This document shows, piece by piece, positions 34,962 to 59,937 of a stretch of 64,000 bases of DNA. The DNA comes from Paracoccaceae bacterium (GTDB lineage: Bacteria > Pseudomonadota > Alphaproteobacteria > Rhodobacterales > Rhodobacteraceae), in contig CANNIA010000007.1 of the NCBI GenBank assembly GCA_947504705.1, positions 1 through 64,000 of the forward strand. The letters are read 5' to 3'. Position 1 is the first letter of the stretch. Each line of letters opens with the position of its first letter. The notes below the pieces were generated by a model. The model had not been told where the DNA came from and searched no databases. It saw nothing but the letters and a program-made list of their open reading frames with translations. Position numbers and translations under genes: made by a program.

Positions 34962-36140
34962 ATGAACATCGAATCCCCCTTCCGCCGCGCCAAGCGCATG
35001 GCGGGCCTTGAGATTTCTGAAATCGTCCAGATCGCCGAACGCGCGGCGGCTTTGAAGAAGGCTGGTCACAGCGTGGTGTCGCTGGCAACCGGTGAGCCGG
35101 ATTTCCCCACGCCGCCCGAGGTGATCGAGGCCGCGCATCGGGCCGCCTTGGCCGGGCAGACCAAGTATACCGCCACGCTTGGCACCGCCGACCTGCGCGC
35201 CGCCGTTGCTGCCGATGCGGGTGCGAATCCGGCTGAGGTGATCATCTCAACCGGGGCAAAGCAGGTAATCGCCAACGCGATGCTCGCCACGCTGGATCCG
35301 GGCGATGAAGTCTTGATGCCCGCGCCCTATTGGACATCCTACTCCGACATCGTGGCCATGGCGGGCGGCGAAGCGACGGTGATCCCTTGCAGCATGGAAG
35401 ACAGCTTCAAGCTGTCTGCGGATCGGCTGGCAGCCGCACTGACGCCAAACACCCGCTGGGTCATGCTGAATGCGCCGTCAAACCCATCCGGCGCGATCTA
35501 TTCACCGGATGAAATCGCCGCGCTGGCCACAGTCTTGCGCCAACACCCGCAAGTGATGATCTTGGCCGATGAGATCTATGAACATCTGAATTTCGTCCCC
35601 TTCACCCGCTTTGCCGACGCCGCACCTGACCTTCGGCACCGGATCCTGACGGTGAACGGCGCATCGAAAGCCTGGTCAATGACCGGCTGGCGGATCGGTT
35701 GGGGCATCGGCCCGGCTGCGCTGATTGCCGTGATGGGGGCCGTTCAAGGCCAGATCACTTCGGGCGCGAGTTCGATTTCGCAGGCGGCAGCGCTGGCCGC
35801 TCTGACCGGCGACCGCGCCCTGATCGACTCCCGGCGTCAGGCGCTTCGGGCGCGGCGCGACCGGGTGGTTGCCGGGCTGAATGCCGTGCCGGGGTTTGAC
35901 TGCCCCAGCCCGGACGGGGCCTTCTATGTCTTCCCGCGCATTACCGGGGCCATGCAGGCCAAGGGTTTCGCAACCGATGCCGCCTTTTGCGAATGGTTGT
36001 TGGAAACCGCAGGCGTCGCCATCGTGCCGGGCCGCGCTTTCGGCCTGCCGGGCCATGCGCGCCTGTCCTTTGCCTATGCCGACAAGGACCTTGACGAAGG
36101 CATCGCCCGGATCAAGACCGCCATGGAAAGCGGGACCTGA
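34962..36140 (+). CDS. class I/II PLP aminotransferase (AspC/2-aminoadipate type)
   Basis: A 392-residue fold-type I aminotransferase. Visible motifs are SLATGEPDFPTPPEV (substrate and helix), MLNAPSNPSGAIYS, LADEIYEHL and the PLP lysine in NGASKAWSMTGWRIGW. These fit the aspartate/aromatic aminotransferase group Igamma. The operon also holds a 2-oxoacid dehydrogenase E1 and an ALDH7-type aldehyde dehydrogenase, so 2-aminoadipate to 2-oxoadipate is a plausible reaction; the sequence alone does not fix it. ATG 34962 was chosen because an upstream TTG would fall inside the regulatory repeat. Confidence 0.9.
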   Translation: MNIESPFRRAKRMAGLEISEIVQIAERAAALKKAGHSVVSLATGEPDFPTPPEVIEAAHRAALAGQTKYTATLGTADLRAAVAADAGANPAEVIISTGAKQVIANAMLATLDPGDEVLMPAPYWTSYSDIVAMAGGEATVIPCSMEDSFKLSADRLAAALTPNTRWVMLNAPSNPSGAIYSPDEIAALATVLRQHPQVMILADEIYEHLNFVPFTRFADAAPDLRHRILTVNGASKAWSMTGWRIGWGIGPAALIAVMGAVQGQITSGASSISQAAALAALTGDRALIDSRRQALRARRDRVVAGLNAVPGFDCPSPDGAFYVFPRITGAMQAKGFATDAAFCEWLLETAGVAIVPGRAFGLPGHARLSFAYADKDLDEGIARIKTAMESGT

Positions 36141-36143
36141 CCC

Positions 36144-38327
36144 ATGGATCGCTGCGAGATCGTCCACGAAAACTTCCTGCGCCGGGTTGCCGCGCGCGAC
36201 CTGCCTCAGGGCCAACCGCCCGCAGGACCGCTTTCCCCCGAACTGGCCGTTCAGGCCTTCCGCGCCGGTTGCCTGACCCGCGTGCTGGACCGCCAAAGCC
36301 GCGCGATGCAACGCGCCGGTCAAGGCTTCTACACCATCGGCTCTTCGGGGCATGAGGGGCTGGCGGCCGTCGCCCTGGCCCTGCGCCCGACCGACATGGC
36401 CTTTCTTCACTACCGCGATGCCGCCTTCCAGATCGCCCGCTCGGGCCAAGTGCCGGGGCAAAACCCGGCCTGGGACATGCTGCTTTCCTTCGCCACCTCG
36501 ACCGAGGACCCGATCTCGGGCGGCAGGCACAAGGTTCTGGGATCCCAAAGCCTGATGATCCCGCCGCAAACATCGACCATCGCCAGCCACCTGCCCAAGG
36601 CCGTGGGCACGGCCTATTCCGTGGGTGCCGCCCGCCGTCACCGGCCCGAACATGCAATCCTGCCCGACGATGCCATCGTCTATTGCAGCTTTGGTGACGC
36701 CTCGGCCAACCATTCCACCGCGCAGGGGGCCTTCAACACCGCGCAGTGGACCTCTTACCAGTCGGTCCCCATGCCGCTTCTGTTCGTCTGCGAAGACAAC
36801 GGTATCGGCATTTCCACCAAGACCCCGAAAGGCTGGATCGAGGCGACCTTCTCTGCCCGCCCCGGCCTGAAATACTTCAAGGCCGACGGGCTGGACCTTT
36901 ACGACACCTACCGCGTCGCCCAGGAAGCTGCCGACTACGTCCGCACCCGTAGGAAACCCGCCTTCCTGCACCTGCGCACCATCCGGCTTTACGGCCATGC
37001 CGGGGCGGATATGCCAACGACCTACCTGCCGCGCGAAGAGGTCGAGGCCGAAGAGGCCAACGATCCGCTGCTTCATTCCGTGCGCCTTCTGGATCAGGCC
37101 GGGGTGATGGCCCCCGATCAGGCCTTGGCGATCTATCAGGAAACGCTGGACCGTGTTGCCCGTGTCGCTGGTGACGCGGTGAAACGGCCCCGCTTGAAGA
37201 CCGCAAAAGAGGTGATGGCCAGCATTATCCCGCCCCGCCGCCAGAACCGCCCCACCAACGGCCCCACGCCCGAGGCGCGGGCGCAGGCCTTCGGCGGCGA
37301 TCTGAAGGCGATGAATGAGCCGCAGATCATGTCGCGCATCATCAACTGGGCGCTAACCGATCTGATGCTTGCCCACCGTGAAATCGTGATGATGGGCGAA
37401 GACGTGGGTCGCAAGGGCGGCGTCTATGGCGTGACCCAAAAGCTGACCCAGCGCTTCGGGTCCGACCGGATGATCGACACGCTTCTGGACGAACAGTCGA
37501 TCCTTGGCCTTGCCATCGGCATGGCGCAGAATGGCTTTGTCCCGATGCCGGAGATCCAGTTCCTCGCCTATCTTCACAATGCCGAAGATCAGCTTCGGGG
37601 TGAGGCTGCGACGCTGTCGTTCTTCAGTAAGGGCGCTTTCACCAACCCGATGGTGCTGCGCATTGCCGGGCTTGGCTACCAAAAGGGCTTCGGCGGGCAT
37701 TTCCACAACGACAACTCGGTCGCCGTGCTGCGTGACATTCCCGGCGTGATCCTTGCCGTGCCGTCGAACGGAGCCGACGCCGCCCGGATGCTGCGTGAAT
37801 GCGTGCGTCTTGCGCGTGAGGAACAGCGGGTTGTCGTCTTCCTTGAACCCATCGCGCTGTATCCGATGCGCGATCTGCACGCCGACAAGGATGGGGCCTG
37901 GATGACTCGCTATCCCGACCCGTCAGAGATCATTCCCTTGGGCGAAGTCGGCATTACCGGCGACGGTCAGGACCTTGCCATTGTGACTTTCGGCAACGGC
38001 ACTTACCTCTCGCAACAGGCCCTGCCGGGGATCAAGGCCGCTGGCATCAAGACCCGGATCATCGACACCCGCTGGCTTTCCCCCCTGCCGAAGGCTGCGC
38101 TGACCAAGGCAGTTGAGGGTTGCAAGAACATCCTGATCGTCGATGAAACCCGCCATTCCGGCGGCGTGGCCGAAGCCTTGATGGCGCATTTCCACGAAGC
38201 TGCCCCCGGCGTTAAACTCGCACGGATCACGGCGGAAGACAGCTTCATCGCCACCGGCCCCGCCTATGCGGTTACCATGCCCTCCTCAGCCGATATCGTG
38301 GCTGCAGCCAAAGGGATGGTCGCATGA
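36144..38327 (+). CDS. 2-oxoacid dehydrogenase E1, fused alpha and beta subunits
   Basis: A thiamine-diphosphate-dependent decarboxylase/dehydrogenase of 727 residues. Residues ~30-370 are an E1-alpha domain with GQGFYTIGSSGHEG, the ThDP-binding FGDASANHSTAQGAFNTA and CEDNGIGIST. Residues ~395-727 are an E1-beta domain with MMGEDVGRKGGVYGVTQKL and DETRHSGGVAE. Fused chains like this occur in branched-chain-type enzymes. No E2 or E3 gene is in the window, so it must borrow those subunits or work differently. The gene starts three bases after the aminotransferase and overlaps the next gene by four. In this setting 2-oxoadipate is the favoured substrate; branched-chain 2-oxoacids are the alternative. 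Confidence 0.88.
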   Translation: MDRCEIVHENFLRRVAARDLPQGQPPAGPLSPELAVQAFRAGCLTRVLDRQSRAMQRAGQGFYTIGSSGHEGLAAVALALRPTDMAFLHYRDAAFQIARSGQVPGQNPAWDMLLSFATSTEDPISGGRHKVLGSQSLMIPPQTSTIASHLPKAVGTAYSVGAARRHRPEHAILPDDAIVYCSFGDASANHSTAQGAFNTAQWTSYQSVPMPLLFVCEDNGIGISTKTPKGWIEATFSARPGLKYFKADGLDLYDTYRVAQEAADYVRTRRKPAFLHLRTIRLYGHAGADMPTTYLPREEVEAEEANDPLLHSVRLLDQAGVMAPDQALAIYQETLDRVARVAGDAVKRPRLKTAKEVMASIIPPRRQNRPTNGPTPEARAQAFGGDLKAMNEPQIMSRIINWALTDLMLAHREIVMMGEDVGRKGGVYGVTQKLTQRFGSDRMIDTLLDEQSILGLAIGMAQNGFVPMPEIQFLAYLHNAEDQLRGEAATLSFFSKGAFTNPMVLRIAGLGYQKGFGGHFHNDNSVAVLRDIPGVILAVPSNGADAARMLRECVRLAREEQRVVVFLEPIALYPMRDLHADKDGAWMTRYPDPSEIIPLGEVGITGDGQDLAIVTFGNGTYLSQQALPGIKAAGIKTRIIDTRWLSPLPKAALTKAVEGCKNILIVDETRHSGGVAEALMAHFHEAAPGVKLARITAEDSFIATGPAYAVTMPSSADIVAAAKGMVA

Positions 38328-39361
38328 AAACCGCCGTCCTGATCTGCCCCGGTCGTGGCACCTATACCAAGGCCGAGCTTGGCAGCCTGACCCGCACCTT
38401 CCCCGACCCAAACCTTCTGGCCCGCTTCGACACCGAACGCGCGCGGCTGGGGCAAGAGACGCTGACCGCCCTTGATACCGCCCCCGCCTATTCAGTCTCG
38501 CGCCACACGCGGGGCGACAATGCCTCAGCGCTCATATACGCGTGCAGCCTGGGCGATGCCCTGTCGCTGAAAGGGGTCGAGGTTGTCGCCGTGACCGGCA
38601 ATTCCATGGGCTGGTATTCAGCGCTCGCCTGCGCTGGCGCGCTGTCGCCGATGGACGGCTTCACCGTGGTCAACACCATGGGCACCCTGATGCAAGAGGC
38701 GCTGATCGGTGGGCAGACCGTCTACCCCTTCATGGGTGAAGACTGGCAGCATAACCCCGCGCGCCACGCTGAATTGCTGGCCCTTGTAATTGAGATCGCC
38801 GCAAGGCCGGGCCACGACCTTGGCCTTTCCATCGACCTCGGCGGCATGCTTATCATCGCCGGAAACGAACCCGGCCTCGCAGCCTTCGAAGCCGCCGTTC
38901 CTCCAGTCCAAACCCGCTTCCCCCTGCGCCTTGGCAATCACGCCGCCTTCCACACCGCACTTCAGGCCCCGGTCGCCGCCAATGGCCGCGCTGCCCTGCC
39001 TGAAACCCTGTTCCGCCAGCCCGCCAAACCCCTTGTCGACGGGCGTGGCCATGTCTGGTGGCCGGGTGCCGCAACGACCGCTGCCTTGCGCAACTACACC
39101 CTCGGCCATCAGGTCGTCGAACCCTACGACTTCACCGCCGCCATCCGCACCGCCGCCCGCGAATTAGCGCCCGATTACTTCATCATCCCCGGCCCCGGCA
39201 CCACCCTTGGCGGAGCCGTCGCGCAAAGCCTCATCCGCGCAAACTGGCGCGGCCTAGCCTCCAAATCCGACTTCCAGCGGCTACAGGCCGAAACCCCTTT
39301 CCTCATCTCCATGGCGCTGCCCGAACAGCGCCCCCTCGTTACAGAAGGTATGCCAAAATGA
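38324..39361 (+). CDS. FabD-like acyltransferase (ACP S-malonyltransferase fold)
   Basis: A 345-residue protein with the start pattern AVLICPGRGTYTKAELG and the nucleophile elbow VTGNSMGWYSALACAGAL. The latter corresponds to G-H-S-x-G of malonyl-CoA:ACP transacylases, with Asn replacing the usual His. A C-terminal IIPGPGTTLGGAVAQSLI resembles the end of this fold. It is embedded by four-base overlaps between an E1 gene and an ALDH gene, so it probably acts in that catabolic route rather than in fatty-acid synthesis. An acyl transfer from the E1 product is conceivable but unproven. Confidence 0.75.
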   Translation: MKTAVLICPGRGTYTKAELGSLTRTFPDPNLLARFDTERARLGQETLTALDTAPAYSVSRHTRGDNASALIYACSLGDALSLKGVEVVAVTGNSMGWYSALACAGALSPMDGFTVVNTMGTLMQEALIGGQTVYPFMGEDWQHNPARHAELLALVIEIAARPGHDLGLSIDLGGMLIIAGNEPGLAAFEAAVPPVQTRFPLRLGNHAAFHTALQAPVAANGRAALPETLFRQPAKPLVDGRGHVWWPGAATTAALRNYTLGHQVVEPYDFTAAIRTAARELAPDYFIIPGPGTTLGGAVAQSLIRANWRGLASKSDFQRLQAETPFLISMALPEQRPLVTEGMPK

Positions 39362-40851
39362 CCCATGCCACGATCCTTGCCGCTGCAGGCCTCACCCAAG
39401 CCGACCTGACCGGCGGCACGCTTCCCGTCCGCTCGCCCATCGACGGGGCCGAGATTGCACGGGTCCATGAAACCGAAAGTCGCGAGATGCCCGCCATCAT
39501 CGCCCGCTCGCAAGCCGCTTTCCGGCAATGGCGTGAGGTTCCCGGCCCCCGTCGCGGCGAACTGGTCCGCCTGATGGGCGAAGAACTGCGCGCCGCAAAG
39601 GCCGAACTGGGTGCGCTGGTTACGCTAGAGGTCGGCAAGATCACCTCGGAAGGCCTTGGCGAAGTGCAGGAGATGATCGACATCTGCGATTTCGCAGTAG
39701 GCCTGTCCCGCCAGTTGTACGGCCTGACCATCGCCTCGGAACGCCCCGGCCACCGCATGGCCGAAACCTGGCTTCCGCTCGGTCCGGTCGGCATCATCAC
39801 CGCCTTCAACTTCCCGGTGGCTGTCTGGTCCTGGAACGCGGCCCTCGCGCTGGTCTGCGGCGATCCGGTGATCTGGAAACCGTCGGAAAAGACCCCGCTG
39901 ACCGCCATCGCAACGCAAAAGATCATGGACCGCGCCCTTGCCCGTTTCGGCGACGCGCCCGAAGGCCTGTGCCAGCTGGTCATCGGCGGCCCCGCCATTG
40001 GCGACGCGCTGGTGTCGTCGAAAGACGTGCCGATCCTGTCGGCCACCGGCTCCACCCGGATGGGCGGGATCGTCGGGCCGAAGGTCGCCGCCCGCTGGGG
40101 CCGCCCGATCCTTGAACTTGGCGGCAACAACGCGATGATCGTTGCCCCCTCCGCCGATCTGGAAATGGCCGTCCGCGCCATTGCTTTCGGCGCGGTCGGC
40201 ACCGCAGGCCAGCGCTGCACCTCGCTCCGCCGCCTGATCGTCCACCGCTCGATCCGTGACGACCTCGTGGCCCGGCTGTCCAAGGTATATGCCAACCTGC
40301 CCGTCGGCGACCCACGCAAGGCTGGCACCCTGATCGGCCCGCTGATCGACATGGGCGCGCGTGACCGGATGCTTGCGCAAATCGCCCGCGCCAAGGCCGA
40401 AGGCGGCACGGTCCATGGCGGCCAGGTGGTCGAAGCCATCACTGGCGGCGCCTACATCCGGCCCGCGCTGGTCGAAATGCCGGGCCAAACCGCGACCGTC
40501 TGCGAAGAATGCTTCGCCCCGATCCTTTACGTCCTGACCTATGACACGCTGGACGAAGCCATCGCGCTGCAAAACGAAGTGCCACAGGGCCTGTCGTCCT
40601 GCATCTTCACCCTGAATCTGCGCGAAGCTGAAACGTTCCTGTCGGCAGCCGGTTCCGATTGCGGCATCGCCAACGTCAACATCGGCCCCTCGGGTGCCGA
40701 AATCGGCGGTGCCTTCGGCGGCGAAAAGGAAACCGGCGGTGGACGCGAAAGCGGTTCGGACGCCTGGAAGGGCTATATGCGGCGGCAAACCTCGACGGTG
40801 AACTACTCGGCCAAACTTCCGCTGGCACAGGGCGTGACTTTCGAGGTCTGA
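39358..40851 (+). CDS. aldehyde dehydrogenase, ALDH7 type (probable 2-aminoadipate semialdehyde dehydrogenase)
   Basis: A 497-residue NAD-dependent aldehyde dehydrogenase. It shows GPVGIITAFNFPVAVWSWNAALAL, ILELGGNNAMIV (general base Glu), GTAGQRCTSLRR (catalytic Cys) and NVNIGPSGAEIGGAFGGEKETGGGRESG. The NIGPSGAEIGGAFGG stretch is typical of ALDH7 (antiquitin/AmaB), which oxidises 2-aminoadipate 6-semialdehyde (AAS) to 2-aminoadipate. ATG 39358 follows from the ATGA overlap with the acyltransferase gene. A strong terminator follows. This enzyme is the key link to hydroxylysine, whose degradation by the fusion protein at 51373 should yield AAS. Confidence 0.88.
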   Translation: MTHATILAAAGLTQADLTGGTLPVRSPIDGAEIARVHETESREMPAIIARSQAAFRQWREVPGPRRGELVRLMGEELRAAKAELGALVTLEVGKITSEGLGEVQEMIDICDFAVGLSRQLYGLTIASERPGHRMAETWLPLGPVGIITAFNFPVAVWSWNAALALVCGDPVIWKPSEKTPLTAIATQKIMDRALARFGDAPEGLCQLVIGGPAIGDALVSSKDVPILSATGSTRMGGIVGPKVAARWGRPILELGGNNAMIVAPSADLEMAVRAIAFGAVGTAGQRCTSLRRLIVHRSIRDDLVARLSKVYANLPVGDPRKAGTLIGPLIDMGARDRMLAQIARAKAEGGTVHGGQVVEAITGGAYIRPALVEMPGQTATVCEECFAPILYVLTYDTLDEAIALQNEVPQGLSSCIFTLNLREAETFLSAAGSDCGIANVNIGPSGAEIGGAFGGEKETGGGRESGSDAWKGYMRRQTSTVNYSAKLPLAQGVTFEV

Positions 40852-40868
40852 CGCCTGACCGACACTCA

Positions 40869-45362: not shown

Positions 45363-45495
45363 GTTCCACCCCATTTCCTGCTGACGCCCGACCAAGGGTC
45401 CGGCGAGATCTTTTCCCAGCCTAATGCAGTCCCTTTCCCGGCACCATGCCTCAGTCCTGCGGGCCTCTACCGATCCGAGCTATGTGCAATAAAAT

Positions 45496-45518
45496 CGTTT
45501 TCACACGAAATAAAAACG
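45496..45518. promoter_or_regulatory. inverted repeat CGTTTT-N11-AAAACG in the divergent promoter region
   Basis: Perfect 6-bp arms sit in a markedly AT-rich stretch between the divergent GSA-aminomutase-like gene and the ABC transporter ATPase gene. It is a candidate operator for a regulator of the transporter operon, perhaps the LacI-family protein encoded at 56640. The assignment is inference. Confidence 0.4.
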
Positions 45519-45538
45519 TATAGCATCGCCAAAATGAC

Positions 45539-46699: not shown

Positions 46700-46715
46700 C
46701 CAAGGGAGGACGACC

Positions 46716-49715: not shown

Positions 49716-51376
49716 TGTTCGATTTCGCCCATATCCCGTTCAGCCGATTTGGCCGGTTCCTGACCCTGTCCGTGATGGACGGCCAGGTCTGGCTGCGGTC
49801 GGTCAAGGGCGGCGATCTTCGCCTCTCGCTTGGTCGTTTGTGCCGGGTTTTTTTGCCCGGCGCTGCGGTGGCCAAATGGCGCCTTACCCCCGACTGTCTG
49901 ACCGCTGAAACCGCCGAAGGCCACGTCGCGTTTGTCATTGGTGAGGGGGAAAGGCTGCACCTGCGCGGGCAGGGCAGCGTGACCTTCGCGCTTGAAGGGT
50001 CGCGCTACGATTATGCCTATGTCACACCGCAGGGCGCGCATTGTGTCGTCGCCGCGGGTGAGGATTTGCGCCTTATGCCGCGCGCGACCAAGGGCACGGT
50101 TCAGGTCATGGGCGACTGGCGGCGTGACCATGCCGATAATGTGGCGATGACCTTTTCGGGGAACGAGGGGTTCGAGGGGACGATCGATCTGTTCCCTGTG
50201 ATCCCGCCCACAGCTTCCACCGAAAGCTTCGATCAGGCGCGCGCCGGGGCGGCCAGTGCCTTCGCCGACTGGCTTGCCCGCACTCCCAAAGGTGACCAGA
50301 AAGAAGCCCGCACCCTTGCCGCCTATCTCCTCTGGGCCAACACGGTCCCGGCCTCGGGCAACCTGACGCGGCCAGCGGTCTATATGTCCAAGAACGCCAT
50401 GATCAACATCTGGTCATGGGACAACGCCTTCTCGGCCCTTGGTGTCGCGGCGATGGACCCCGCCTTGGCTTTCGACCAGTTCGCCGCGATCTATGATCAC
50501 CAGCACCCCTCGGGCCTGCTGCCGGATTTCGTCAACGACCGTGAGGCCTATTTCACCTTCACCAAACCGCCCGTCCATGGCTGGGCGATCCTGCGGCTGA
50601 TCGAAAGCCACCCCGACTGGCTGACCGAAGCCCGCCGTGCCGCGCTTGTCCCTTGGCTGGAGCGCCAGCTTTCCTATTGGCTTACCCATGCACGCAAGGA
50701 TGGCCAAAGCCTTCCCGCCTATTGCCACGGCAACGATTCCGGCTGGGACAACGCCACGTTCTTTGCCGAGGGCGGGCCGGTTCTGACCCCCGACCTGCCC
50801 ACTTTCCTGATCCTGACCTGCGATTGCCTCTCCCGCCTTGACCCCACCCGCGCCGCGCATTGGCAGGCCGAGGGCGCAGCTCTCTATGCACTTCTCACCA
50901 CGCTCTGGACCGGCCAGGCCTTCGGAACCCGTCTTGCCGCCGACCCCGCCCGCCTGCGGCAGGATGAAAGCCTGATCGGCTTTATCCCCTTGCTCCTTGG
51001 CCCCCGCCTTGCGCCCGAAGTGGCCGCCCGGCTGATCGACCGTCTGGGCCAAGGCTGGATCACCGACTGGGGCCCGGCGACGGAGCGGCCGCAAAGCCCC
51101 TTTTACGAACCCGACGGCTATTGGCGCGGGCCGATCTGGGCGCCGACGGCGATGCTTTTGTGGGATGGCCTGCTTCGGCAGAACCAAGAAGACCTTGCCG
51201 CCGACATCGCCCTGCGTTTTTGTCGCTTGTGCGAAACCTCGGGCATGGCAGAGAACTTCGATGCGCTGACCGGCAAAGGCCTTCGTGACCGCGCCTTTGC
51301 CTGGACTTCGGCGGTCTATCTTCTGCTTTCGGCCTGGCTCGCCGCCCGAAATACTCAAGGACAAGACCAAGCATGA
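49715..51376 (+). CDS. GH63-type glycoside hydrolase (cytoplasmic)
   Basis: A 553-residue (alpha/alpha)6-barrel glycosidase of the GH63/GH37-like group. Visible landmarks are NIWSWDNAFSALG with the candidate general acid Asp at residue 236, DDSGWDNATFF-like GNDSGWDNATFFAEG, and EPDGYWRGPIWAPTAMLLWDGL at residues 465-486. GH63 was founded on processing alpha-glucosidase I, which removes alpha-1,2-linked glucose; other members hydrolyse mannosylglycerate or glucosylglycerate. No signal peptide is present, so it acts on imported substrate. It is coupled by a 1-base overlap to the permease and by 4 bases to the kinase/lyase fusion, which suggests that one glycosylated amine is first deglycosylated, then phosphorylated. 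Confidence 0.85.
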   Translation: MFDFAHIPFSRFGRFLTLSVMDGQVWLRSVKGGDLRLSLGRLCRVFLPGAAVAKWRLTPDCLTAETAEGHVAFVIGEGERLHLRGQGSVTFALEGSRYDYAYVTPQGAHCVVAAGEDLRLMPRATKGTVQVMGDWRRDHADNVAMTFSGNEGFEGTIDLFPVIPPTASTESFDQARAGAASAFADWLARTPKGDQKEARTLAAYLLWANTVPASGNLTRPAVYMSKNAMINIWSWDNAFSALGVAAMDPALAFDQFAAIYDHQHPSGLLPDFVNDREAYFTFTKPPVHGWAILRLIESHPDWLTEARRAALVPWLERQLSYWLTHARKDGQSLPAYCHGNDSGWDNATFFAEGGPVLTPDLPTFLILTCDCLSRLDPTRAAHWQAEGAALYALLTTLWTGQAFGTRLAADPARLRQDESLIGFIPLLLGPRLAPEVAARLIDRLGQGWITDWGPATERPQSPFYEPDGYWRGPIWAPTAMLLWDGLLRQNQEDLAADIALRFCRLCETSGMAENFDALTGKGLRDRAFAWTSAVYLLLSAWLAARNTQGQDQA

Positions 51377-54300
51377 CCCTGTTCGCAACCGCCAACCCCG
51401 CGTTTTCCGAGGCTGAGCTTCTGGAGCTTGCCGCCCAGACCTTTGGCAAATCAGGCAAGATCCGCCCCTTACCATCCGAGCGTGACCAGAATGCCCGGCT
51501 GATTGCCGGAGAGGAGGAGTTCGTCCTCAAGATCGCCAACCCATCCGAAGATCCCGGTCAGATCGACCTGCAGAATGCCACGATGCTGCACCTTGCCCGC
51601 GTCGGACACCCCGGCATCCCGCGTGTCGTGCCAACGCTTTCGGGTCAGGATCGTGCGACGGTTATGGTCGCGGGCCAACCCGCCTTGATGCGGCTTGTCA
51701 CCTGGATCGGCGGCAAACCCCTGGCCGAGGCCACGCGCAGCCTTGAGCAACTGGCGGCGCTTGGGGCCTTTATGGGCGGACTTACCCGGTCGATGCAGGG
51801 TTTTGGCCACCCCCACGCCTTTCGCCCCGATTTCCCATGGTCGCTGGACCACGTGATCCAGCTGCGCGACCATGTGGCCGACATTGCCAACCCCGCCCGC
51901 CGCGCGTTGGTTGAACGGCTTTTTGCCCGCTATGAGGCGCAAGTTCTGCCCCGCTTGCCAGGCCTTCGCGCCTCGGTCCTGCATCAGGATGCGAATGACT
52001 GGAATGTCATCGTTGACCCGACCGACCCCAACCGGATCGCGGGGCTGATCGACTTTGGCGACATGTGCCATGGCCGCACCGTCAATGAGTTGGCGATCAC
52101 GCTGGCCTATGCCCTGCTGGACACGCCCGATCTCTATTCCGCCCTGCGCGTGCTGATCTCTGCCTTTGCCGAAGCCTTCCCGCTAACCGAGGACGAGGCC
52201 GAGCTTGTCTATGACCTTACGCGGATGCGGCTGGTCTCATCGGTCTGCATCTCCTCGCGCCAGTCAAAGCTGCACCCGGAAAACGACTATCTTCTGATCA
52301 GCCAAGCCCCCGCCTTCGCGCTGCTGGAGCGGCTTGACAGCCTTGACCCCGCCTTCATGATCGCGCTGTGCCGCAAGGCCGCCGGGTTCGAGGCTATTCC
52401 CGGCACATCGGAGATCACCGCCGATCTTGCCACCCGGACCCTGCACCCGATCCTTGCCACCGACCCCCGTCGCGCCGCGCGGATCGCTTTGCCAACCGAT
52501 GGCAGCCGCACCGGCATGCCCGTTTATTCCGACCGCGCTTTCGATGCGTGGATGCAGGCCCAGCGCTCCGCGAACCTTCCCGCCGACATCCCCTTCCTTG
52601 GCTTCGGTCTTTATGGCGAGAGACGCTCGGTCTACACCTCGGTCCATTTCGCCGATGCCGCCAGCGAGGAGCGCCGCACCCGCCACCTGGGCGTCGATAT
52701 CTTCGCCCCGGCACGGACGGCTGTGCATGCGCCCCTCGACGGGGTGGTCGAAAGCGTCACCTACAACGCCGACCCCTTGGACTATGGCAATACGCTGGTC
52801 CTGCGGCACGAAACCGCACAGGGGCGGCCCTTCTTTACCCTTTACGGTCACCTCGCGGGCACACTCCCCGGTCTTTGCTCCAAGGGCCAGACCATCAAAG
52901 CCGGAGACCACATCGCCGATTTCGGCGACTGGCACGAAAACGGTGGCTGGGCCCCGCATCTGCATTTCCAGCTGATCACCAGCATGCTGACCCAGTCCGG
53001 CAACTTCTTTGGCGTGGGCCATGCCAGCCTGTGGGACACTTGGGCCGACATCAGCCCCGATGCCAATCTGATCCTGCGGCTGGAACCCGAAAGCTTCCAG
53101 ATCGACCCCGAGCCGCCCGAAGCCCTGCTGGCCCGCCGCCGCAAGGTGATCGGGCCGTCGCTGTCGATTTCCTACCGCGAGAAGCTGAAGATCGTCCGGG
53201 GTCGCGGGCCGTGGCTGATCGACCATACCGGACGGCGCTATCTGGATACGGTCAACAACATCACCCATGTCGGCCACTGCCACCCCCATGTGGTGGAGGC
53301 GCTGGCCCGGCAGGCGGCAGAGCTGAATACCAACTCCCGCTACCTGCACGACGCCATGCCCCGCCTTGCCGAGCGCATCGCCGCCACCATGCCGGGCGAT
53401 TTGCGGGTGGTCTATTTCGTGAACTCCGGCACCGAGGCGAACGAGCTTGCCCTGCGCATCGCGCGCACAGCGCTGGGGAAAAGGGATACCGTGGTTCTTG
53501 ACTGGGCCTATCACGGCAACTCTGGCGGCACAGTCGACATCAGCCCCTACAAGTTCAAACGCAAGGGCGGCTTCCCGCAGCCCGATTTCGTGCAGATCGC
53601 CACTTTCCCCGACTCCTACCGTGGCCCGCATCGTGGCCCGGACTCCGGCCCCGCCTATGCCGCCGACATCGACCGCTGCCTTGATGCGGTCGAGGCCCGC
53701 ACCGGAACCTGCGCTGCCACTTTCATCGCCGAGTCCCTCTCTGGCGTCGGTGGGCAGGTGATCCTGCCGAAGGGCTATCTGCATGAGGTCTATACCCGCG
53801 TCCGCGCCCGTGGTGGCCTTTGCATCGCTGATGAGGTCCAATGCGGCTTTGGGCGCGTCGGCACCGCCTTCTGGGGTTTCGCCACCCAGAACGTGACACC
53901 CGACATCGTCGTTCTTGGCAAACCCATCGGCAACGGCCACCCGCTTGCCGCTGTAGTCACAACGCCCGAACTTGCCGCGAAATTCGCCAACGGGATGGAG
54001 TATTTCAACTCTTTTGGCGGCAACCCCGTCTCTATGGCCGTGGGTCACGTGGTCATGGATGTGATCGAGGCCGAAAACCTGCCCGCCAAGGCCGTCACCA
54101 CGGGCGAAGCCCTGATGCAGGGCTACCGCGATCTGGCGAACCGCTTCCCGATCATTGGCGATGTGCGCGGCATGGGGCTGTTCATCGGGGTCGAACTTGT
54201 CAGCAACCGTGACGCCCGCACTCCGGCCACCAAAGCCGCCGACCATGTCGTCGATCAGCTGCGCCTGCGCGGCGTGCTCGCCTCGACCGATGGGCCGGAT

Positions 54301-54426
54301 GACAATGTCCTGAAGATCAAGCCGCCCATGGTCTTCGGCCCTACCGAGGCTGCAATCCTGCTGGCCGAGACCGAAGCCGCCCTTTCAACCCTTGACCAAG
54401 ACCAACCAACCCGGAGGAAGACATGA
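51373..54426 (+). CDS. trifunctional fusion: APH-type kinase, M23 peptidase, class III aminotransferase-fold phospho-lyase
   Basis: A 1017-residue three-domain protein. Residues ~1-340 are an aminoglycoside-phosphotransferase-like kinase of the hydroxylysine kinase (HYKK/AGPHD1) type, with catalytic HQDANDWN (H204, D206, N211) and metal motif DFGD (227-230). Residues ~410-560 are an M23/LytM domain with an intact zinc site: HLGVD (438-442), YGHL (491-494) and HLHF (529-532). Residues ~590-1010 are a class III aminotransferase fold with PLP lysine K850 in [14 protein letters not shown], of the AGXT2L branch that includes ethanolamine-phosphate and 5-phosphohydroxylysine phospho-lyases. No signal peptide. 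Such fusions are known in alphaproteobacteria. The predicted sequence is amine alcohol, phosphate ester, then aldehyde plus ammonia and phosphate; hydroxylysine would give 2-aminoadipate semialdehyde. Confidence 0.9.
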
Positions 54427-55166
54427 AACACACTGTCCTTACCCTGCTTGCCGCCCTTGCACTGACCACGGCTGCCGATGCCGCCGATCTTGGGGGTGCT
54501 ACCCTGAAGGTCGGCTCTGACACCACCTCGCCGCCGATGGAATTCATCGACCCTGCAACCGGTGCCATCGTCGGCTTTGACGTCGATGTAGTGAATGCGA
54601 TCTGTGACAAGATCAACTGCACCGCTGAATTTGTCACCACCGGCTGGGACGGCATTTTCACCGCCCTGCAGGAAGGCCAGTTCGACCTTGTTGCTTCGGG
54701 CGTTTCGATCACCGACGAACGGCTGGAAGTGATGGACTTCTCCGAGCCCTACATCATCAACGGTCAGGCGATCCTGGTGCGTGCCGCCGACGCCGCTTTG
54801 ACGGTTGATGACTTCAAGTCCGGCAAGAAGCTTTCGGCCCAAGCCAACACCACCGACGCAGCCACCGCCGAAGAAATCGCCGGGAAGGAAAACGTGCAGG
54901 CCTATGACACGTTCACCGGTTCGGTCCTTGCCTTGCGCAACGGCGATGTCGACGGCGTGGTGATCAACGGCGCCAATGCCGGGGCTTACGAGGCCGAATT
55001 CGCCGGTGAGTTGGTCGTAACGATCCGCGACCTCAAGGCCGATCCGCTGGGTCTGGTGTTCCAGAAGGGCGACGAACGGGCCGTTGCCTTCAACGAAGGC
55101 CTCGCCGCGATCAAGGCCGACGGTACGCTTGACGCGCTGATCGCCAAATACTGGACCGCCGAGTAG
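54423..55166 (+). CDS. amino-acid ABC transporter substrate-binding protein
   Basis: A 247-residue periplasmic binding protein of the polar amino-acid family (PBPb). The signal peptide [20 protein letters not shown] is cleaved near residue 20. The mature part has LKVGSDTTSPPMEFIDPATGAIVGFDVDV and GWDGIFTALQEGQFDLVASGVSITDERLEVMDFSEPY. It overlaps the fusion protein gene by four bases and is followed by a strong hairpin that may raise its mRNA level. Its likely permease is encoded at 57693. The ligand may be the amino-acid part of the same substrate. Confidence 0.92.
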   Translation: MKHTVLTLLAALALTTAADAADLGGATLKVGSDTTSPPMEFIDPATGAIVGFDVDVVNAICDKINCTAEFVTTGWDGIFTALQEGQFDLVASGVSITDERLEVMDFSEPYIINGQAILVRAADAALTVDDFKSGKKLSAQANTTDAATAEEIAGKENVQAYDTFTGSVLALRNGDVDGVVINGANAGAYEAEFAGELVVTIRDLKADPLGLVFQKGDERAVAFNEGLAAIKADGTLDALIAKYWTAE

Positions 55167-55174
55167 TCCCCTCC

Positions 55175-55204
55175 CGGCCATGGCGGAACCCTCCGCCATG
55201 GCCG
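55175..55204 (+). terminator. 13-bp hairpin between binding-protein and GH1 genes
   Basis: CGGCCATGGCGGA and TCCGCCATGGCCG form a perfect 13-bp stem with loop ACCC, followed by CTTTTG. It begins nine bases after the binding-protein stop. It can act as a partial terminator or 3' stabiliser giving extra binding protein relative to downstream genes. Confidence 0.8.
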
Positions 55205-55236
55205 CTTTTGATGCGCATTCCCAAGGTAGCGAACCC

Positions 55237-56610
55237 ATGCTTGACCACAGCTCTGACGACCTTCTCGCTCGCGCCGGCGCGCTGCAATTGCCCCGCGACT
55301 TTGTCTTTGGCGGGGCGACTGCGGCTTACCAGATCGAAGGGGCGTGGGACGCGGACGGCAAGGGCGAAAGCATCTGGGACCGGTTCTGCCGCAAGCCCGG
55401 TGCCGTCATCGACAAAAGCTCGGGAGATGTGGCCTGCGACCATTATCATCTGTGGCAGGAGGACATTCGCCTGATGCAGGACCTGGGCCTTGATGCCTAC
55501 CGTTTCTCCATCGCCTGGAGCCGCGTACAGCCCGAAGGCCAGGGGGCTGCGAACCCCAAAGGCATCGCCTTCTACGACCGGCTGATCGATGGGCTGCTGA
55601 AAGCAGGGATCACCCCCTATCTCACGCTTTACCACTGGGACCTGCCCCAGGCGCTGCAAGACAAGGGCGGCTGGTACAACCGCGACACCGCGCACCATCT
55701 GGCCGACCATGCCGAAGCGATGGCGCGCCACTTCGGCGACCGGGTCCGGCACTGGACCACGCTGAACGAACCCTGGACCTTTTGCTGGTCGGGCCATGCC
55801 TCCGGCGAAGACGCGCCCGGCCTTCTGGACGGCGTGAAGGGGGGCCTTGCCGCCAGCCACCACGCCCTTCTTGGCCACGGGCTTTCCGTCCCCCGCATCC
55901 GGGCCGCAGCCCCGGGGGCCGAGGTTGGCATCGTCCTTGACCTGAACGTGGTCGAACCAGCCTCACAGAAACCGCAGGACATTCAGGCTGCCCGCCATTT
56001 CGAACTGGCGCAAAACCGCTTCTATCTGGATGCCGTCTTCAAAGGCCGCTATCCGCAGGAACTGCTGACCCTTTGCCAAGACCTGCTGCCTGAAATCCGC
56101 GAAGGCGACCTCGCCACGATCAATGCCCCCGTCGACTACCTTGGCGTCAACATCTACCGCCGGTCCGTCATGCAGGCAGGCGCCGAACTGCCGCCCTTGA
56201 ACTTCGCCCGCGTCAGCCCGCCCGGGGACTATACCGCCGTCGGCTACGAGATCTATCCGCCCTGCATTCACGACATCCTCATGTATGTTCACCGCGACTA
56301 TGCCCCGAAAGTGATCCATATTTCCGAAAGCGGCATGGCCACCCGGCCCGAAACCCCGGAAGCCGACGGTTTGATCCACGATCGCCAGCGCGCCGCTTAT
56401 TACATCGACCACATCGCCGAACTGGACCGCGCCCGCCGCGCCGGGGTGCCGGTCAAAGCCTATTTCGCCTGGACGCTGATCGACAATTTCGAATGGGCTT
56501 ACGGCTATACAACCCCCTTCGGCATCGTGCATGTCGATCTGGAAACCCAGAAACGCAGCCCCAAGCTTTCCGCCCTTTGCTACCGTGAGGTCATTCGCGC
56601 CCGAAGCTGA
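55237..56610 (+). CDS. GH1 family beta-glycosidase (beta-glucosidase/beta-galactosidase)
   Basis: A 457-residue cytoplasmic retaining beta-glycosidase of family GH1. The family start FVFGGATAAYQIEGAWDADGKGESIWDRF, the acid/base TLNEPW (E178) and the nucleophile motif HISESG (E364, usually ITENG) are present, with the C-terminal YFAWTLIDNFEWAYGYTTPFGIVHVD. GH1 enzymes act on beta-glucosides, beta-galactosides and related compounds. ATG 55237 was chosen because earlier in-frame ATG codons lie within the terminator-like hairpin. In this operon removal of a beta-linked galactose from an amino-acid glycoside is a reasonable inference. Confidence 0.93.
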   Translation: MLDHSSDDLLARAGALQLPRDFVFGGATAAYQIEGAWDADGKGESIWDRFCRKPGAVIDKSSGDVACDHYHLWQEDIRLMQDLGLDAYRFSIAWSRVQPEGQGAANPKGIAFYDRLIDGLLKAGITPYLTLYHWDLPQALQDKGGWYNRDTAHHLADHAEAMARHFGDRVRHWTTLNEPWTFCWSGHASGEDAPGLLDGVKGGLAASHHALLGHGLSVPRIRAAAPGAEVGIVLDLNVVEPASQKPQDIQAARHFELAQNRFYLDAVFKGRYPQELLTLCQDLLPEIREGDLATINAPVDYLGVNIYRRSVMQAGAELPPLNFARVSPPGDYTAVGYEIYPPCIHDILMYVHRDYAPKVIHISESGMATRPETPEADGLIHDRQRAAYYIDHIAELDRARRAGVPVKAYFAWTLIDNFEWAYGYTTPFGIVHVDLETQKRSPKLSALCYREVIRARS

Positions 56611-56639
56611 CCCCTTCCAAGCCCTGCATGAGGTGACCC

Positions 56640-57680
56640 TTGCGTTCCACCACCCCGCGACCCACGATCAAGACGCTGTCCGAGATGACCGGCTTTTCCA
56701 TAGCCACCATCTCGAAAGCGCTTGGAAATTCGCCGGTGGTGACCGACGCGACGCGGAAAGCCATCATCGAAGCGGCAGAGAAGGTCGGCTATCAAGCCTC
56801 GCTTCGGGGCCGGTCGCTGCGCACGGGGAAGTCCTATCAGATCGCTGTGCTGATGCCGCTATCGGTGGCGAAAAGCCATGAATGGAACGGGGTCGAACAC
56901 GCCGAGATTCTGGCCGGCATCGTCGAGGGGCTGGAAGGTTCACCCTATCGCATTGCCGTCCATCTGGTCCGCGACACAGAAGACAGCCTTGAGGTGGTGC
57001 GCAGCATCGTCGAAGGGCATCAGGCTGATGGTCTGATCTTTTCGGGCATCCTGTCCGACGATCCGCGCATCGCGTTTCTGGCCGCCCACGGGTTCCCCTT
57101 CGTCACGCTTGGCCGCAGCCATACCGCCGCACCCCATGCCTTTGTCGATCTTGACAGCGACTGGGCCGCCCACGCCGCCACCCGCCGCTTGCTGGACGGG
57201 GGCCACCGCCGCATCGCGCTGGTGAACCCCGCGCCCGAGCTTGCCTATAGCCGCGACCGGGTCAACGGCTATTCCCGTGCGCTGGCGGAGGTGGGTCTGA
57301 CCCCCGATCCCGCGATGATCATCGGCGGCGATCTGACCACGCGGCACGGAAAAGAAGCAGTCCTTGCCCTGCGCGCCCTGCCCGATCCCGCCACCGGCTT
57401 TGTCTGCGTCAACGAATCTACCGCGCTTGGAGTGCTGTCCGGCCTGCATGGACTTGGCGTCGATGTGGGCCACAAGGCCTCGGTCATCGCCTATGACGAC
57501 ATCAACGCCAGCGCCTATTTCTGGCCGCCGCTGACCACCTTTCTTTACCCGCTGGAAACGCTTAGCCGCGTGCTGGCCAATTTCATGTTGCGGCTGCTTC
57601 AGGGCGAGGATCCCGCCAGCCTGACGCATTTTGTCCAGCCTGAAATGATCATCCGCCAACCCGACCACCTGATCTCGTGA
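56640..57680 (+). CDS. LacI-family transcriptional regulator
   Basis: A 346-residue repressor. The helix-turn-helix and hinge are TIKTLSEMTGFSIATISKALGNSPVVTDATRKAIIEAAEKVGYQASLRGRSLRTGKSY, followed by a sugar-binding-type effector domain. Start TTG 56640 is supported by GAGGTG just upstream. It lies 29 bases after the GH1 gene inside the operon, so it probably controls the operon in response to a sugar released from the substrate. The inverted repeat at 45496 is one possible target. Confidence 0.9.
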   Translation: MRSTTPRPTIKTLSEMTGFSIATISKALGNSPVVTDATRKAIIEAAEKVGYQASLRGRSLRTGKSYQIAVLMPLSVAKSHEWNGVEHAEILAGIVEGLEGSPYRIAVHLVRDTEDSLEVVRSIVEGHQADGLIFSGILSDDPRIAFLAAHGFPFVTLGRSHTAAPHAFVDLDSDWAAHAATRRLLDGGHRRIALVNPAPELAYSRDRVNGYSRALAEVGLTPDPAMIIGGDLTTRHGKEAVLALRALPDPATGFVCVNESTALGVLSGLHGLGVDVGHKASVIAYDDINASAYFWPPLTTFLYPLETLSRVLANFMLRLLQGEDPASLTHFVQPEMIIRQPDHLIS

Positions 57681-57692
57681 CGGAGTCCCCTT

Positions 57693-59294
57693 GTGAAACG
57701 CCTGCCCCGGCTTGACGCCTTGCGCCCTGCGAATTTCCTTTTGCTGCTGGCGTTTCCCTTTCTGGTCTGGCTGTTCCTGTCCTCGACCGACTACAGCCGC
57801 TCCTTCGCCGCAATCATCGGCGTCGAACGGGGCGGTGCCGCGCTTCTTCCGGGTTTCCTGCTGTGCGTCGCTCTCTTTGCCGGGGCCACCGCCACCGCCG
57901 TTACAAACCGCCTTGGCCTTTCCCTGATCTCGCTTGTGGCCGGGCTGCTGCTTGCCGTGACCAGCCTTGGTCAACCCTTCCTCGCCTCAACCCTTGCCAA
58001 CGCGGTTGACCCCGCCTCGTCCCTCGTTGTCGCCGGAGAGACCCCCTACATCCTCACCGAAACTGCCGCCGCGACCACCGCCACGGTCATCCGCATCCTA
58101 GCCATCGCCCTGACTCTAATGAACGCAGCGCTTTTCTGGCTTCTGCGCCGCCCCGCCACACGAACCCTAGCCAAACCCGCCCTTCTGGCGCTGAACGGAT
58201 TGGGCCTTGGCTGGCTGTTCCTCTTCGCCCATCTCGGCTTTGCCACCGGCCTTGCGGTCGCTGTGCGGGCCGGGATCACCGCCTATATCCTCGCCTCGGT
58301 CCTAGCCCTGTTCTGGGTAGGCCTGATGGACCTGCGCCTTTCGCGTCGCAGCTTGCCGATCTTCGCAGCCCTTGCCCTTGCCGCCCTGGCCCTTGCAACC
58401 TCGCAATTCCTGCAACCCCACATCCCGGTGGCGCTGATCGGCGATGCCTCCGGCACCGTCGGGATCAACGTCGGTACCCCCGCACAGGTGGTTGATGCGA
58501 TCCGCCACGGCTCCTGGCCCGATGCCCCCGAAACCGACCCCAAGATCCGCACCGTTCTTACCCCGGAAGAAGGCCTCGCCCAGATGCAATCCGGCAAGCT
58601 TTCAGGCGTCGTGCTGCCCACCCCTCTTGCCCCGCCCGAGCTGATCCTTTGGCAGACAGAAGTCCTGCCCGACGCCCAGGCCAATCTTGGCATCACTGCG
58701 CTGGTCCTTGGGATCGCGCTTTTGCTCCTGACCGTCTGCGGCTGGATCTACCGCCGCCATCCCCTGTCGATTGCGGCCGAGTTCCTGATCGACACCCTGC
58801 GTGGCATCCCGATGCTGGTGATCATCCTTTACATCGGGCTGCCCCTGGCCGGGGTGCTGAAATCCTCGACCAACGGCTTTCTCGATCCGCCAAACCTGCT
58901 GCGCGGGATCACCGCCATGGCGATCGCCTATTCCGCCTATATGGCCGAGATTTTCCGCGCCGGGATCAACGCGGTGCCCACGGGGCAGATCGAGGCCGCC
59001 CGCTCGCTTGGCCTGACCCGATGGCAGACCGCCCGCCATGTGATCCTGCCGCAGGCCTTCCGCATCGTGATCCCGCCGATGGGCAACGAGTTCATCGCGA
59101 TCCTGAAGGACACGTCGCTCCTCTCAATCCTGTCGATCCGCGACCTGACCCAACGGATGCGCGAGTTCCAGTCCGCGACCTTTCTGACCTTTGCGCCCTA
59201 TAACACGGTGGCCATCATCTATGTCTTCCTCACCCTCATCGCCGCCAGCCTTGTCGCTCGCGTCGAACATCGGTTCCGCAACCATCAGCGGTAA
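57693..59294 (+). CDS. amino-acid ABC transporter permease with long extra N-terminal membrane domain
   Basis: A 533-residue membrane protein. Residues ~315-530 are a standard polar amino-acid permease (HisM/GlnP type) with TLRGIPMLVIILYIGLPL and the EAA loop IEAARSLGLTRWQTARHVILPQAFRIVIPPMGNEF. Before it lies an added region with about seven hydrophobic segments (residues ~14-240) and a soluble loop of ~65 residues (GTVGINVGTPAQVVDAIRHG through LSGVVLPTPL) that faintly resembles a binding-protein fragment. GTG start 57693 has GGAG upstream. No cognate ATPase is encoded nearby. It probably pairs with the binding protein at 54423. Confidence 0.85.
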   Translation: MKRLPRLDALRPANFLLLLAFPFLVWLFLSSTDYSRSFAAIIGVERGGAALLPGFLLCVALFAGATATAVTNRLGLSLISLVAGLLLAVTSLGQPFLASTLANAVDPASSLVVAGETPYILTETAAATTATVIRILAIALTLMNAALFWLLRRPATRTLAKPALLALNGLGLGWLFLFAHLGFATGLAVAVRAGITAYILASVLALFWVGLMDLRLSRRSLPIFAALALAALALATSQFLQPHIPVALIGDASGTVGINVGTPAQVVDAIRHGSWPDAPETDPKIRTVLTPEEGLAQMQSGKLSGVVLPTPLAPPELILWQTEVLPDAQANLGITALVLGIALLLLTVCGWIYRRHPLSIAAEFLIDTLRGIPMLVIILYIGLPLAGVLKSSTNGFLDPPNLLRGITAMAIAYSAYMAEIFRAGINAVPTGQIEAARSLGLTRWQTARHVILPQAFRIVIPPMGNEFIAILKDTSLLSILSIRDLTQRMREFQSATFLTFAPYNTVAIIYVFLTLIAASLVARVEHRFRNHQR

Positions 59295-59937
59295 GACCTG
59301 GCTTGTCACTGGCGCGGCGCGTGGGCTGGGCCTGTGCCTTGTCCGGCATCTTTCGGCGCAAGGCGCCCGCGTTCTGGCCCTGTCCCGCGCGCCGGGACTC
59401 GTGATGCCCGGCGTGACCCACATCCCCTACGACCAGGCGGACGAAACCTCGATCAATGCTGCCGCCCAGGCCGTCTCCGGCCAGATCGACTACGTCATCC
59501 ACAACGCCGCTATCCGGGGCGATACTGGAGGATTGGCGACCTTGACCGCCAGCGATCTGGCCGCGGTCATCCGGATCAACGTCGCTGGCCCCCTCCTGCT
59601 GACTCGCGCGCTCATCCCGCATCTCTCACCGGGGGCAACCCTTGCCTTCATCTCCAGCCGAGCGGGGTCGTTCACCGAAGGCCGCGATTCCGATGGTGAC
59701 TATGCCTATTGCCTATCCAAAGCCGCGCTTAACCGGGCGGTGGCCAAGCTTGCCGATGACCTGCCATTCCGGGTTCTGGCCCTGCACCCCGGCTGGCTCC
59801 GCACCGAAATGGGTGGAGACCAAGCGCCGGAAGACCCGGATGATGCCGCCGCAAGGATTCTGTCCCTGTTGGCGGGCCCAAAGGGGCCGGTATCGGGCAG
59901 CTTTGCCGATTCCCATGGAAAACTGATCCAACCTTAA
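59221..59937 (+). CDS. short-chain dehydrogenase/reductase
   Basis: A 238-residue SDR with the cofactor motif KTWLVTGAARGLGLCLVRHL (TGxxxGxG), the NAG-like HNAAIRG, the catalytic serine region FISSRAGS and the YCLSK motif (Y-x-x-x-K). The substrate is unknown. The start is uncertain: ATG 59221 overlaps the permease gene by 74 bases, and a TTG at 59251 would shorten the overlap and give the usual short N-terminus. It is the last gene of the operon and converges on the flagellar export genes five bases away. Confidence 0.82.
   Translation: MSSSPSSPPALSLASNIGSATISGKTWLVTGAARGLGLCLVRHLSAQGARVLALSRAPGLVMPGVTHIPYDQADETSINAAAQAVSGQIDYVIHNAAIRGDTGGLATLTASDLAAVIRINVAGPLLLTRALIPHLSPGATLAFISSRAGSFTEGRDSDGDYAYCLSKAALNRAVAKLADDLPFRVLALHPGWLRTEMGGDQAPEDPDDAAARILSLLAGPKGPVSGSFADSHGKLIQP

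Follow-up and report, generated by a model that had tools for sequence, protein, structure and literature searches.

Which substrate would call for a sugar importer, two glycoside hydrolases, an amino-acid binding protein and a protein fusing a kinase, a peptidase and a phospho-lyase, all within one operon? This question is raised by the first 64,000 nucleotides of contig CANNIA010000007.1 of a Paracoccaceae bacterium (assembly GCA_947504705.1, a genome of 3.72 Mb); this whole stretch is called the window below. Pfam and NCBIfam searches show there a metabolic block composed of operon A (34962-43082) followed by operon B (45539-59937, + strand). We propose that operon B is probably a regulon for the uptake and breakdown of the collagen-type units galactosyl-hydroxylysine and glucosyl-galactosyl-hydroxylysine. 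The proposal is based on which genes are present, on their conserved catalytic residues, on the recurrent linkage of the same genes and on operator-like sites that they share. The features of operon B are, in order:

45488..45521, + strand: LacI-type operator-like repeats AATAAAATCGTTT and AATAAAAACGTAT, 21 bp apart, 5' of operon B
45539..46699, + strand: UgpC/MalK-type ATPase of an ATP-binding cassette (ABC) importer (NF008653 450.7, cut-off 432; NCBIfam only)
46716..47951, + strand: sugar-type solute-binding protein, SBP_bac_1 (Pfam)
47990..48910, + strand: MalF/UgpA-like ABC permease, BPD_transp_1 (Pfam, NCBIfam)
48903..49715, + strand: MalG/UgpE-like ABC permease, BPD_transp_1 (PermB; Pfam, NCBIfam)
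49715..51376, + strand: GH63-type glycoside hydrolase (PF22422, MGH1-like; 149.5 bits, cut-off 27)
51373..54426, + strand: APH-Peptidase_M23-Aminotran_3 fusion, called FUS here (Pfam; NF004799 1207.9 bits, cut-off 1128)
54423..55166, + strand: amino-acid-type solute-binding protein, SBP_bac_3 (Pfam, NCBIfam), 69% identical to its Sinorhizobium meliloti counterpart
55180..56610, + strand: GH1 enzyme, proposed beta-galactosidase (TIGR03356 559.9, cut-off 478.5)
56640..57680, + strand: LacI-family regulator (Pfam, NCBIfam)
57693..59294, + strand: amino-acid ABC permease of 533 amino acids (aa) with a long N-terminal part (PF00528 at aa 349-529)
59260..59937, + strand: short-chain dehydrogenase (SDR; Pfam)

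A sequence-only reading of this DNA had already listed an importer, a GH63 enzyme, the fusion, an amino-acid binding protein, a GH1 enzyme and a LacI regulator, and had noted that the GH63 gene overlaps both importer and kinase genes. Pfam and NCBIfam bear out this gene content, and coordinates and bases give the overlaps: 1 base between PermB and GH63 (TGATG), 4 bases between GH63 and FUS, and 4 again between FUS and SBP_bac_3. The GH63 open reading frame (ORF) opens at 49634, and its likely ATG start is at 49715. The named genes of both operons thus stand, but that reading had missed the 533-aa permease and the SDR, the acyltransferase-like, lysine-dehydrogenase-like and agmatinase-family genes of operon A, and a P5CR-like/HemL-like pair between the operons. 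In 8 of 10 Rhodobacterales-like loci the SDR is retained, as it is in S. meliloti (45% identity). The amino-acid permease carries about 330 additional N-terminal residues, and operon B has no amino-acid-type ATPase; the UgpC-type ATPase may serve sugar and amino-acid importers alike.

From these sequences we infer the substrates, the order of the reactions, the role of the M23 domain, the binding of LacI and the hand-over to operon A, as follows. The CUT1 importer, the amino-acid permease with its binding protein, or both would take up galactosyl-hydroxylysine, Glc(a1-2)Gal(b)-O-hydroxylysine or short glycopeptides. GH63 would remove the alpha-glucose and GH1 (elsewhere GH42 or GH2) the beta-galactose. 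In FUS, the kinase domain would then phosphorylate 5-hydroxylysine, and the pyridoxal-phosphate (PLP) domain would form 2-aminoadipate semialdehyde by elimination of phosphate and ammonia. The ALDH7 of operon A could oxidise this semialdehyde to 2-aminoadipate. The M23 domain of FUS would probably trim a peptide bond of hydroxylysine-containing peptides. LacI would act on operon B at the AAACGTTT-like sites between 45488 and 45521.

The GH63 gene accompanies FUS in two phyla. The FUS loci analyzed are the best 80 of 165 relatives, a set in which distant FUS are under-sampled; the closest named relatives of the window locus by FUS in this set are Tabrizicola, Rhodobacter and Stagnihabitans. Ten loci, L001-L010, are Rhodobacterales-like, and 63 (L016-L080 minus L023 and L071) are Bacteroidota-like; L028, which bears a gammaproteobacterial name, is counted among the latter since it groups there on the FUS tree. 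L008, whose record is named Exiguobacterium profundum (Bacillota), has Rhodobacterales-like genes and stands beside Tabrizicola on the tree; it is probably a mislabelled metagenome-assembled genome. Family counts in loci are cluster memberships, with one or two representatives per cluster scanned by hidden Markov models (HMMs; 10 proteins in each scan). The ORFs called by our script, which keeps the longest greedily, are misread in high-GC loci, and these loci were read by tblastn instead.

GH63 and FUS occur together in 9 of the 10 Rhodobacterales-like loci (L009 is the exception, and in L001, L002 and L004 the contig ends within the GH63 frame) as well as in S. meliloti 1021 and ml21. Compared with those of the window, the S. 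meliloti sugar importer and GH63 are 60-79% identical and its FUS 43%, and its beta-galactosidase comes from another family. For the 63 Bacteroidota-like loci, GH63 is found in 35, GH2 in 33 and both in 31; in 31 of the 63 the GH63 gene immediately precedes FUS on the same strand, at a distance of -59 to 27 bases. A family of 199 flavobacterial genomes, that of G258 (Aquimarina, the genome of locus L057), was not picked for GH63. It holds GH63 in 18 genomes, FUS in 42 and both in 17 (Fisher p=2.4e-12). In 16 of the 18 the two genes share a strand and are no more than 5 kb apart, and in 13 no more than 250 bases. The exceptions are one genome with GH63 without FUS and one in which both are present 13 kb apart on opposite strands. 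When 20 flavobacterial genomes were searched whole, the 15 picked with a GH63 locus had one GH63 each, presumably the one at the FUS locus, and the 5 picked without had none.

On the FUS tree, built by a quick method and with some long branches (that of S. meliloti among them), the linkage state changes 16 times, at least 10 of these changes being forced by the starred branches. On these repeated changes we reject a single inherited accident as the origin of the linkage. FUS is the broader partner, and GH63 behaves as an add-on that needs it.

The operator-like sites suggest a shared control. The repeats at 45488 and 45509 are the only two places in the 3.72 Mb genome with at most one mismatch, no further copy being found there at this threshold. 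Related sites precede the UgpC importer gene in L003, L005-L008, L010, L120 and S. meliloti L089. Six matches at two mismatches or fewer are present in L089, against 0.07 expected; they amount to about five separate sites, the first two matches being the two strands of one palindrome. The sites precede a LacI-SBP3-permease-SDR-FUS unit, an importer-GH63 unit and the GH42 gene, so that the three units look like one regulon. In L120 (genome G034) operon B and an ALDH7 gene stand head to head with the sites in the gap, this ALDH7 being 79% identical to that of the window. The LacI regulator may bind at AAACGTTT-like sites. In the window alone the operator evidence is modest, and its weight comes from conservation across loci.

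FUS has three domains: an APH kinase (about aa 30-246), an M23 metallopeptidase (about aa 437-535) and a class III PLP phospho-lyase (about aa 605-1001). It also exceeds the NF004799 (PRK06148) cut-off in the genome-wide search. We aligned 82 sequences, i.e. those of the window, L001-L080 and S. meliloti 1021. In the kinase domain D206, N208, N211 and D227 are found in 82 of 82 and H204 in 79. The M23 residues H438, D442, H493, H529 and H531 are invariant in all 82, and Lys850 of the PLP domain is present in 81, the last having a gap. From family knowledge we take these to be the functional residues of the three domains, those of M23 serving in zinc binding or catalysis. The best solved relatives of the M23 profile are M23-type peptidases, e.g. 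8s3m ("lytic endopeptidase") and 9gy1. The intact M23 domain would be a third activity of FUS, left without explanation by the sequence-only reading; if short collagen peptides are taken up, a peptidase in the cytoplasm, carried by a hydroxylysine enzyme, would make sense.

Two more kinase/phospho-lyase pairs, both without M23, are present in the window genome (L091 8840-11155 and L092 8926-11264). One is fused and lies about 5 kb from a BADH-like aldehyde dehydrogenase; the other consists of separate genes beside pstB-phoU. No glycosidase was found around them among the 10 proteins scanned, the pairs included.

Hydroxylysine as the aglycone is indirectly supported. The kinase-lyase logic of hydroxylysine breakdown was reportedly set out by Veiga-da-Cunha in 2012, bacterial fusions of the two enzymes having helped to find the human ones. 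Enzymes of the hydroxyproline type stand near FUS in 8 to 11 of the 63 Bacteroidota-like loci, among them members of the hydroxyproline-epimerase family in 8 and D-amino-acid dehydrogenases in 9. A Pro_racemase-family gene, assigned by cluster, is also near FUS in the Gemmatimonadota locus L023. Two representatives exceed the cut-offs of their models, namely the Pro_racemase-family protein of L044 (4-hydroxyproline epimerase, 582.6 vs 376) and the pyrroline/piperideine-2-carboxylate reductase of L061 (384.3 vs 322). Below their cut-offs are the second Pro_racemase type of L066, whose best match is trans-3-hydroxyproline dehydratase (364.3 vs 540), the D-amino-acid dehydrogenase (282.7 vs 383) and a Xaa-Pro aminopeptidase-like protein (264 vs 465). 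Hydroxyproline together with hydroxylysine is a mark of collagen. According to PMC9283133, the human sister enzyme of ethanolamine-phosphate phospho-lyase acts on phosphohydroxylysine; this paper and PMC8154272 both cite the 2012 work.

The PLP domain of FUS opens the way to a first alternative, in which the operon would serve the glycoside of another amino alcohol. Ethanolamine or a related lipid head group, for example, would carry the galactosyl or glucosyl-galactosyl part, and FUS would be an ethanolamine-type kinase with a phosphoethanolamine lyase. The top match of the PLP domain among the 60 PDB matches listed is the human ethanolamine-phosphate phospho-lyase 6tor (426 bits), followed by the phospholyase 5g4i, and the M23-less pairs in the genome indicate that the family is broad. 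No PHYKPL is among these 60 matches. But the binding protein and permease of operon B are of the amino-acid type, and the hydroxyproline-epimerase-family genes of eight Bacteroidota-like loci and L023 also speak against this alternative. Moreover, the ALDH7 of G034 shares the operator region, and another S. meliloti FUS adjoins an Lrp-type regulator and an amino-acid binding protein. We consider this alternative quite unlikely. The S. meliloti FUS just mentioned, in strain Ak57 (L148 9001-16183), is a second FUS-type gene and is convergent with another long "aminotransferase".

The third partner, beside GH63 and FUS, is constant in place while its family changes between the unrelated GH1, GH42 and GH2. 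GH1 is present in the window, L001-L007 and L010. S. meliloti has instead a GH42 with a beta-galactosidase trimerisation domain, the protein that was HMM-scanned; its homologs in L008 and L120 are recognized by tblastn similarity to it. In 32 of the 63 Bacteroidota-like loci a LacZ-type GH2 with Bgal_small_N lies directly downstream of FUS. The same 63 loci include galactokinase in 10, GalT in 8, aldose epimerase in 11 and an SSS symporter in 13. In L061, a GH27-type alpha-galactosidase-like gene (PF16499; 8798-9976) stands between two GH2-cluster genes, directly before FUS.

A second alternative is an ordinary system for plant or algal galactosides of the raffinose, melibiose or lactose type, with FUS as a passenger. 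A CUT1 importer, a beta-galactosidase and a LacI regulator are typical of sugar operons, and FUS often occurs without GH63. The S. meliloti CUT1 binding protein SMb20931, which may be another than that of the operon, is induced by raffinose, melibiose and lactose, according to PMC3333776. A passenger would nevertheless hardly account for GH63 being without FUS in just 1 of 18 genomes, for a linkage that arose or disappeared repeatedly on the FUS tree, for overlapping coding ends, or for the fact that in S. meliloti the same operator-like sites precede both the importer unit and that of FUS. We judge such a system very unlikely.

The GH63 enzyme would be, in our proposal, an alpha-1,2-glucosidase acting on Glc-Gal-hydroxylysine. 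It passes the Pfam gathering score of PF22422, and its matches at E <= 0.001 are this family and a weak Trehalase match, with no GH65 among them. An alignment of 21 homologs, out of more available, shows the motifs SGxDN and EN(F/Y) to be invariant in 21 of 21; we take them to be the catalytic acid and base motifs. In the Bacteroidota homolog, which also matches YgjK_N, both correspond to the WESGRD and QENYNP of E. coli YgjK. No signal sequence is apparent by eye, so that the enzyme is probably cytoplasmic. Its structure model was of low confidence (mean pLDDT 61.8) and was set aside. A third alternative, a glucosylglycerate or mannosylglycerate hydrolase in an operon for a compatible solute, is hardly credible in spite of the Pfam name MGH1-like, of NF047898 (glucosylglycerate hydrolase) as best NCBIfam match and of TTHA0978 as best PDB match by phmmer, because the NF047898 score of 60.6 is far under the equivalog cut-off of 550, the proposed base stands in E-N-(F/Y) in the window and 20 other homologs, as in YgjK, and not in the E-Y-Y of TTHA0978 and 6g3n (both presumably glycerate-type enzymes), and a compatible solute explains neither FUS nor the beta-galactosidase. 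On the score and the motif we reject this identity for GH63.

Several observations weigh against the collagen-type proposal and have to be set beside the above. At the class level, GH63 is found only in the window genome among 385 genomes (FUS in 13), too rare for a linkage test. Of the 42 flavobacterial genomes with FUS, 25 have no GH63, and 23 of the 63 Bacteroidota-like loci have neither GH63, GH2 nor the hydroxyproline-epimerase family. In Paracoccus seriniphilus a FUS 66% identical to that of the window adjoins an amino-acid-type importer, with no annotated glycosidase. The GH1 enzyme passes only the beta-glucosidase model TIGR03356, so that galactose is argued from the GH42 and GH2 replacements. 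Hydroxyproline-type genes accompany a minority of the FUS loci, as counted above, and the window genome gives no match to NF010578 (4-hydroxyproline epimerase). The closest PDB relative of the PLP domain is a phosphoethanolamine enzyme, which keeps ethanolamine-like substrates in play. S. meliloti lives with plants, from which hydroxylysine glycosides are not known. Within the window alone, two operator matches at two mismatches or fewer are reached by 8 of 100 shuffles, and the degenerate form of the operator has no match there. Finally, operon A is common and separate from operon B.

This last point concerns the claim of the sequence-only reading that the two operons form one route from the glycoside to 2-oxoadipate and glutaryl-CoA. 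The genes of operon A on which it relies are:

34962..36140, + strand: class I aminotransferase, candidate 2-aminoadipate aminotransferase (Pfam)
36144..38327, + strand: fused (alpha/beta) 2-oxoacid dehydrogenase E1 (Pfam)
39358..40851, + strand: ALDH7, L-piperidine-6-carboxylate / aminoadipate-semialdehyde dehydrogenase (NF050084 798.5, cut-off 730)

Acyltransferase-like, saccharopine/lysine-dehydrogenase-like and agmatinase-family genes complete the operon. The part of the claim that concerns operon B gains from the data: GH63 tracks FUS in two phyla, GH1, GH42 and GH2 replace one another, and galactose and hydroxyproline genes join the loci. The union of the two operons fares less well. In its favour, the ALDH7 gene is the sole one in the genome above the NF050084 cut-off, and that of G034 lies at the operator. 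Against it, orthologs of the operon-A E1 are found in 76 of 248 genomes of the family while GH63 is in 4, and there is no such operator before operon A in the window. Three of the four GH63 genomes have E1, which with four genomes gives a Fisher p of 0.087 and is not significant. Operon A as a dedicated partner of operon B is not accepted, the E1 being widespread and the operator absent. No E2 or E3 was found among the 28 window ORFs scanned by Pfam, the rest of the genome not being searched; the E1 without E2 or E3 among these ORFs leaves the glutaryl-CoA step unproven. Operon A looks like a general module for lysine and aminoadipate, which would also accept what FUS makes, its ALDH7 being the likely entry. 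As a hypothesis, the pathway is well supported for operon B, while one route through both operons is weakly supported.

The E1 gene and the adjacent MdcH/FabD-like acyltransferase gene (window 36144-39361) are also adjacent in 5 of 7 relatives (L122, L123, L124, L127 and L128, not L125 and L126). The loci of these seven were searched with window proteins alone as queries. The E1 possibly works with an unusual acyl acceptor.

Between the two operons, the P5CR-like/HemL-like pair (43273-45395, minus strand) comprises a HemL-like aminotransferase and diverges from operon B, sharing its operator-bearing upstream region. The pair is also found in L003 (1251-3400), and has no match beside operon B in L005-L007 and L010. 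Flagellar genes stand on both sides of the block, at 30730-32663 (FlgF/G-type hook/rod proteins and a FlgA-type chaperone) and at 60304-63994 (FlhB, FliR and FlhA families), as though the metabolic block were an insertion in a flagellar cluster.

Among animal proteins collagen is very abundant, and dedicated enzymes are needed for its Glc-Gal-hydroxylysine units. If the proposal is true, the fusion family that NCBIfam describes as "hypothetical protein" would gain a substrate, and this GH63 group a function in marine and soil bacteria, S. meliloti among them. The operon would also supply an enzyme as a tool for work on the collagen disaccharide, and marker genes by which to follow collagen turnover in water, in soil and on marine animals. 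A bolder form, which we advance tentatively and hold to be doubtful, is that FUS would be a three-activity enzyme, whose cytoplasmic M23 domain would act on Gly-X-Hyl type peptides to release hydroxylysine, free or glycosylated, for phosphorylation by the kinase and splitting by the PLP domain. It would act in an undescribed system of collagen-glycan utilisation spread over at least two phyla, with GH63 as an independently invented counterpart of the animal collagen glucosidase of family GH65. Among the matches listed from open-licence PubMed Central, no paper on a bacterial Glc-Gal-hydroxylysine pathway was found, which is weak evidence of absence. For the S. meliloti operon, nothing was found there beyond one table entry for SMb20973, a tag that may lie outside the operon.

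How does this system compare with known ones? Operon A resembles the LYSDH/AASADH lysine catabolism of alphaproteobacteria in its lysine-dehydrogenase-like, ALDH7, aminotransferase and E1 genes, and is not collagen-specific, as the distribution of E1 relative to GH63 shows. FUS belongs with the PRK06148 (NF004799) fusions by its score, a model whose own description assigns no function. Like HYKK (AGPHD1) and PHYKPL (AGXT2L2) of mammalian hydroxylysine catabolism, it joins an APH-type kinase to a class III PLP ammonio-phospholyase, but it does so in one protein with an intact M23 domain, set among genes for an importer, a proposed alpha-glucosidase, a proposed beta-galactosidase and a LacI regulator. 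E. coli YgjK is of the same family GH63 as the window enzyme and is the closest solved relative of the Bacteroidota homolog, whereas the window enzyme is shorter, more diverged and closest to TTHA0978. The glycosynthase product of YgjK is Glc-a1,2-Gal. The natural substrate of YgjK was assumed to be another alpha-glucoside, according to PMC9061262. PGGHG (ATHL1), a eukaryotic GH65, removes glucose from Glc-a1,2-Gal-Hyl and is reported from human and chicken (PMC8626586). This is the reaction proposed here for a GH63-type enzyme in bacteria; a bacterial GH63 performing it would be a convergent solution.

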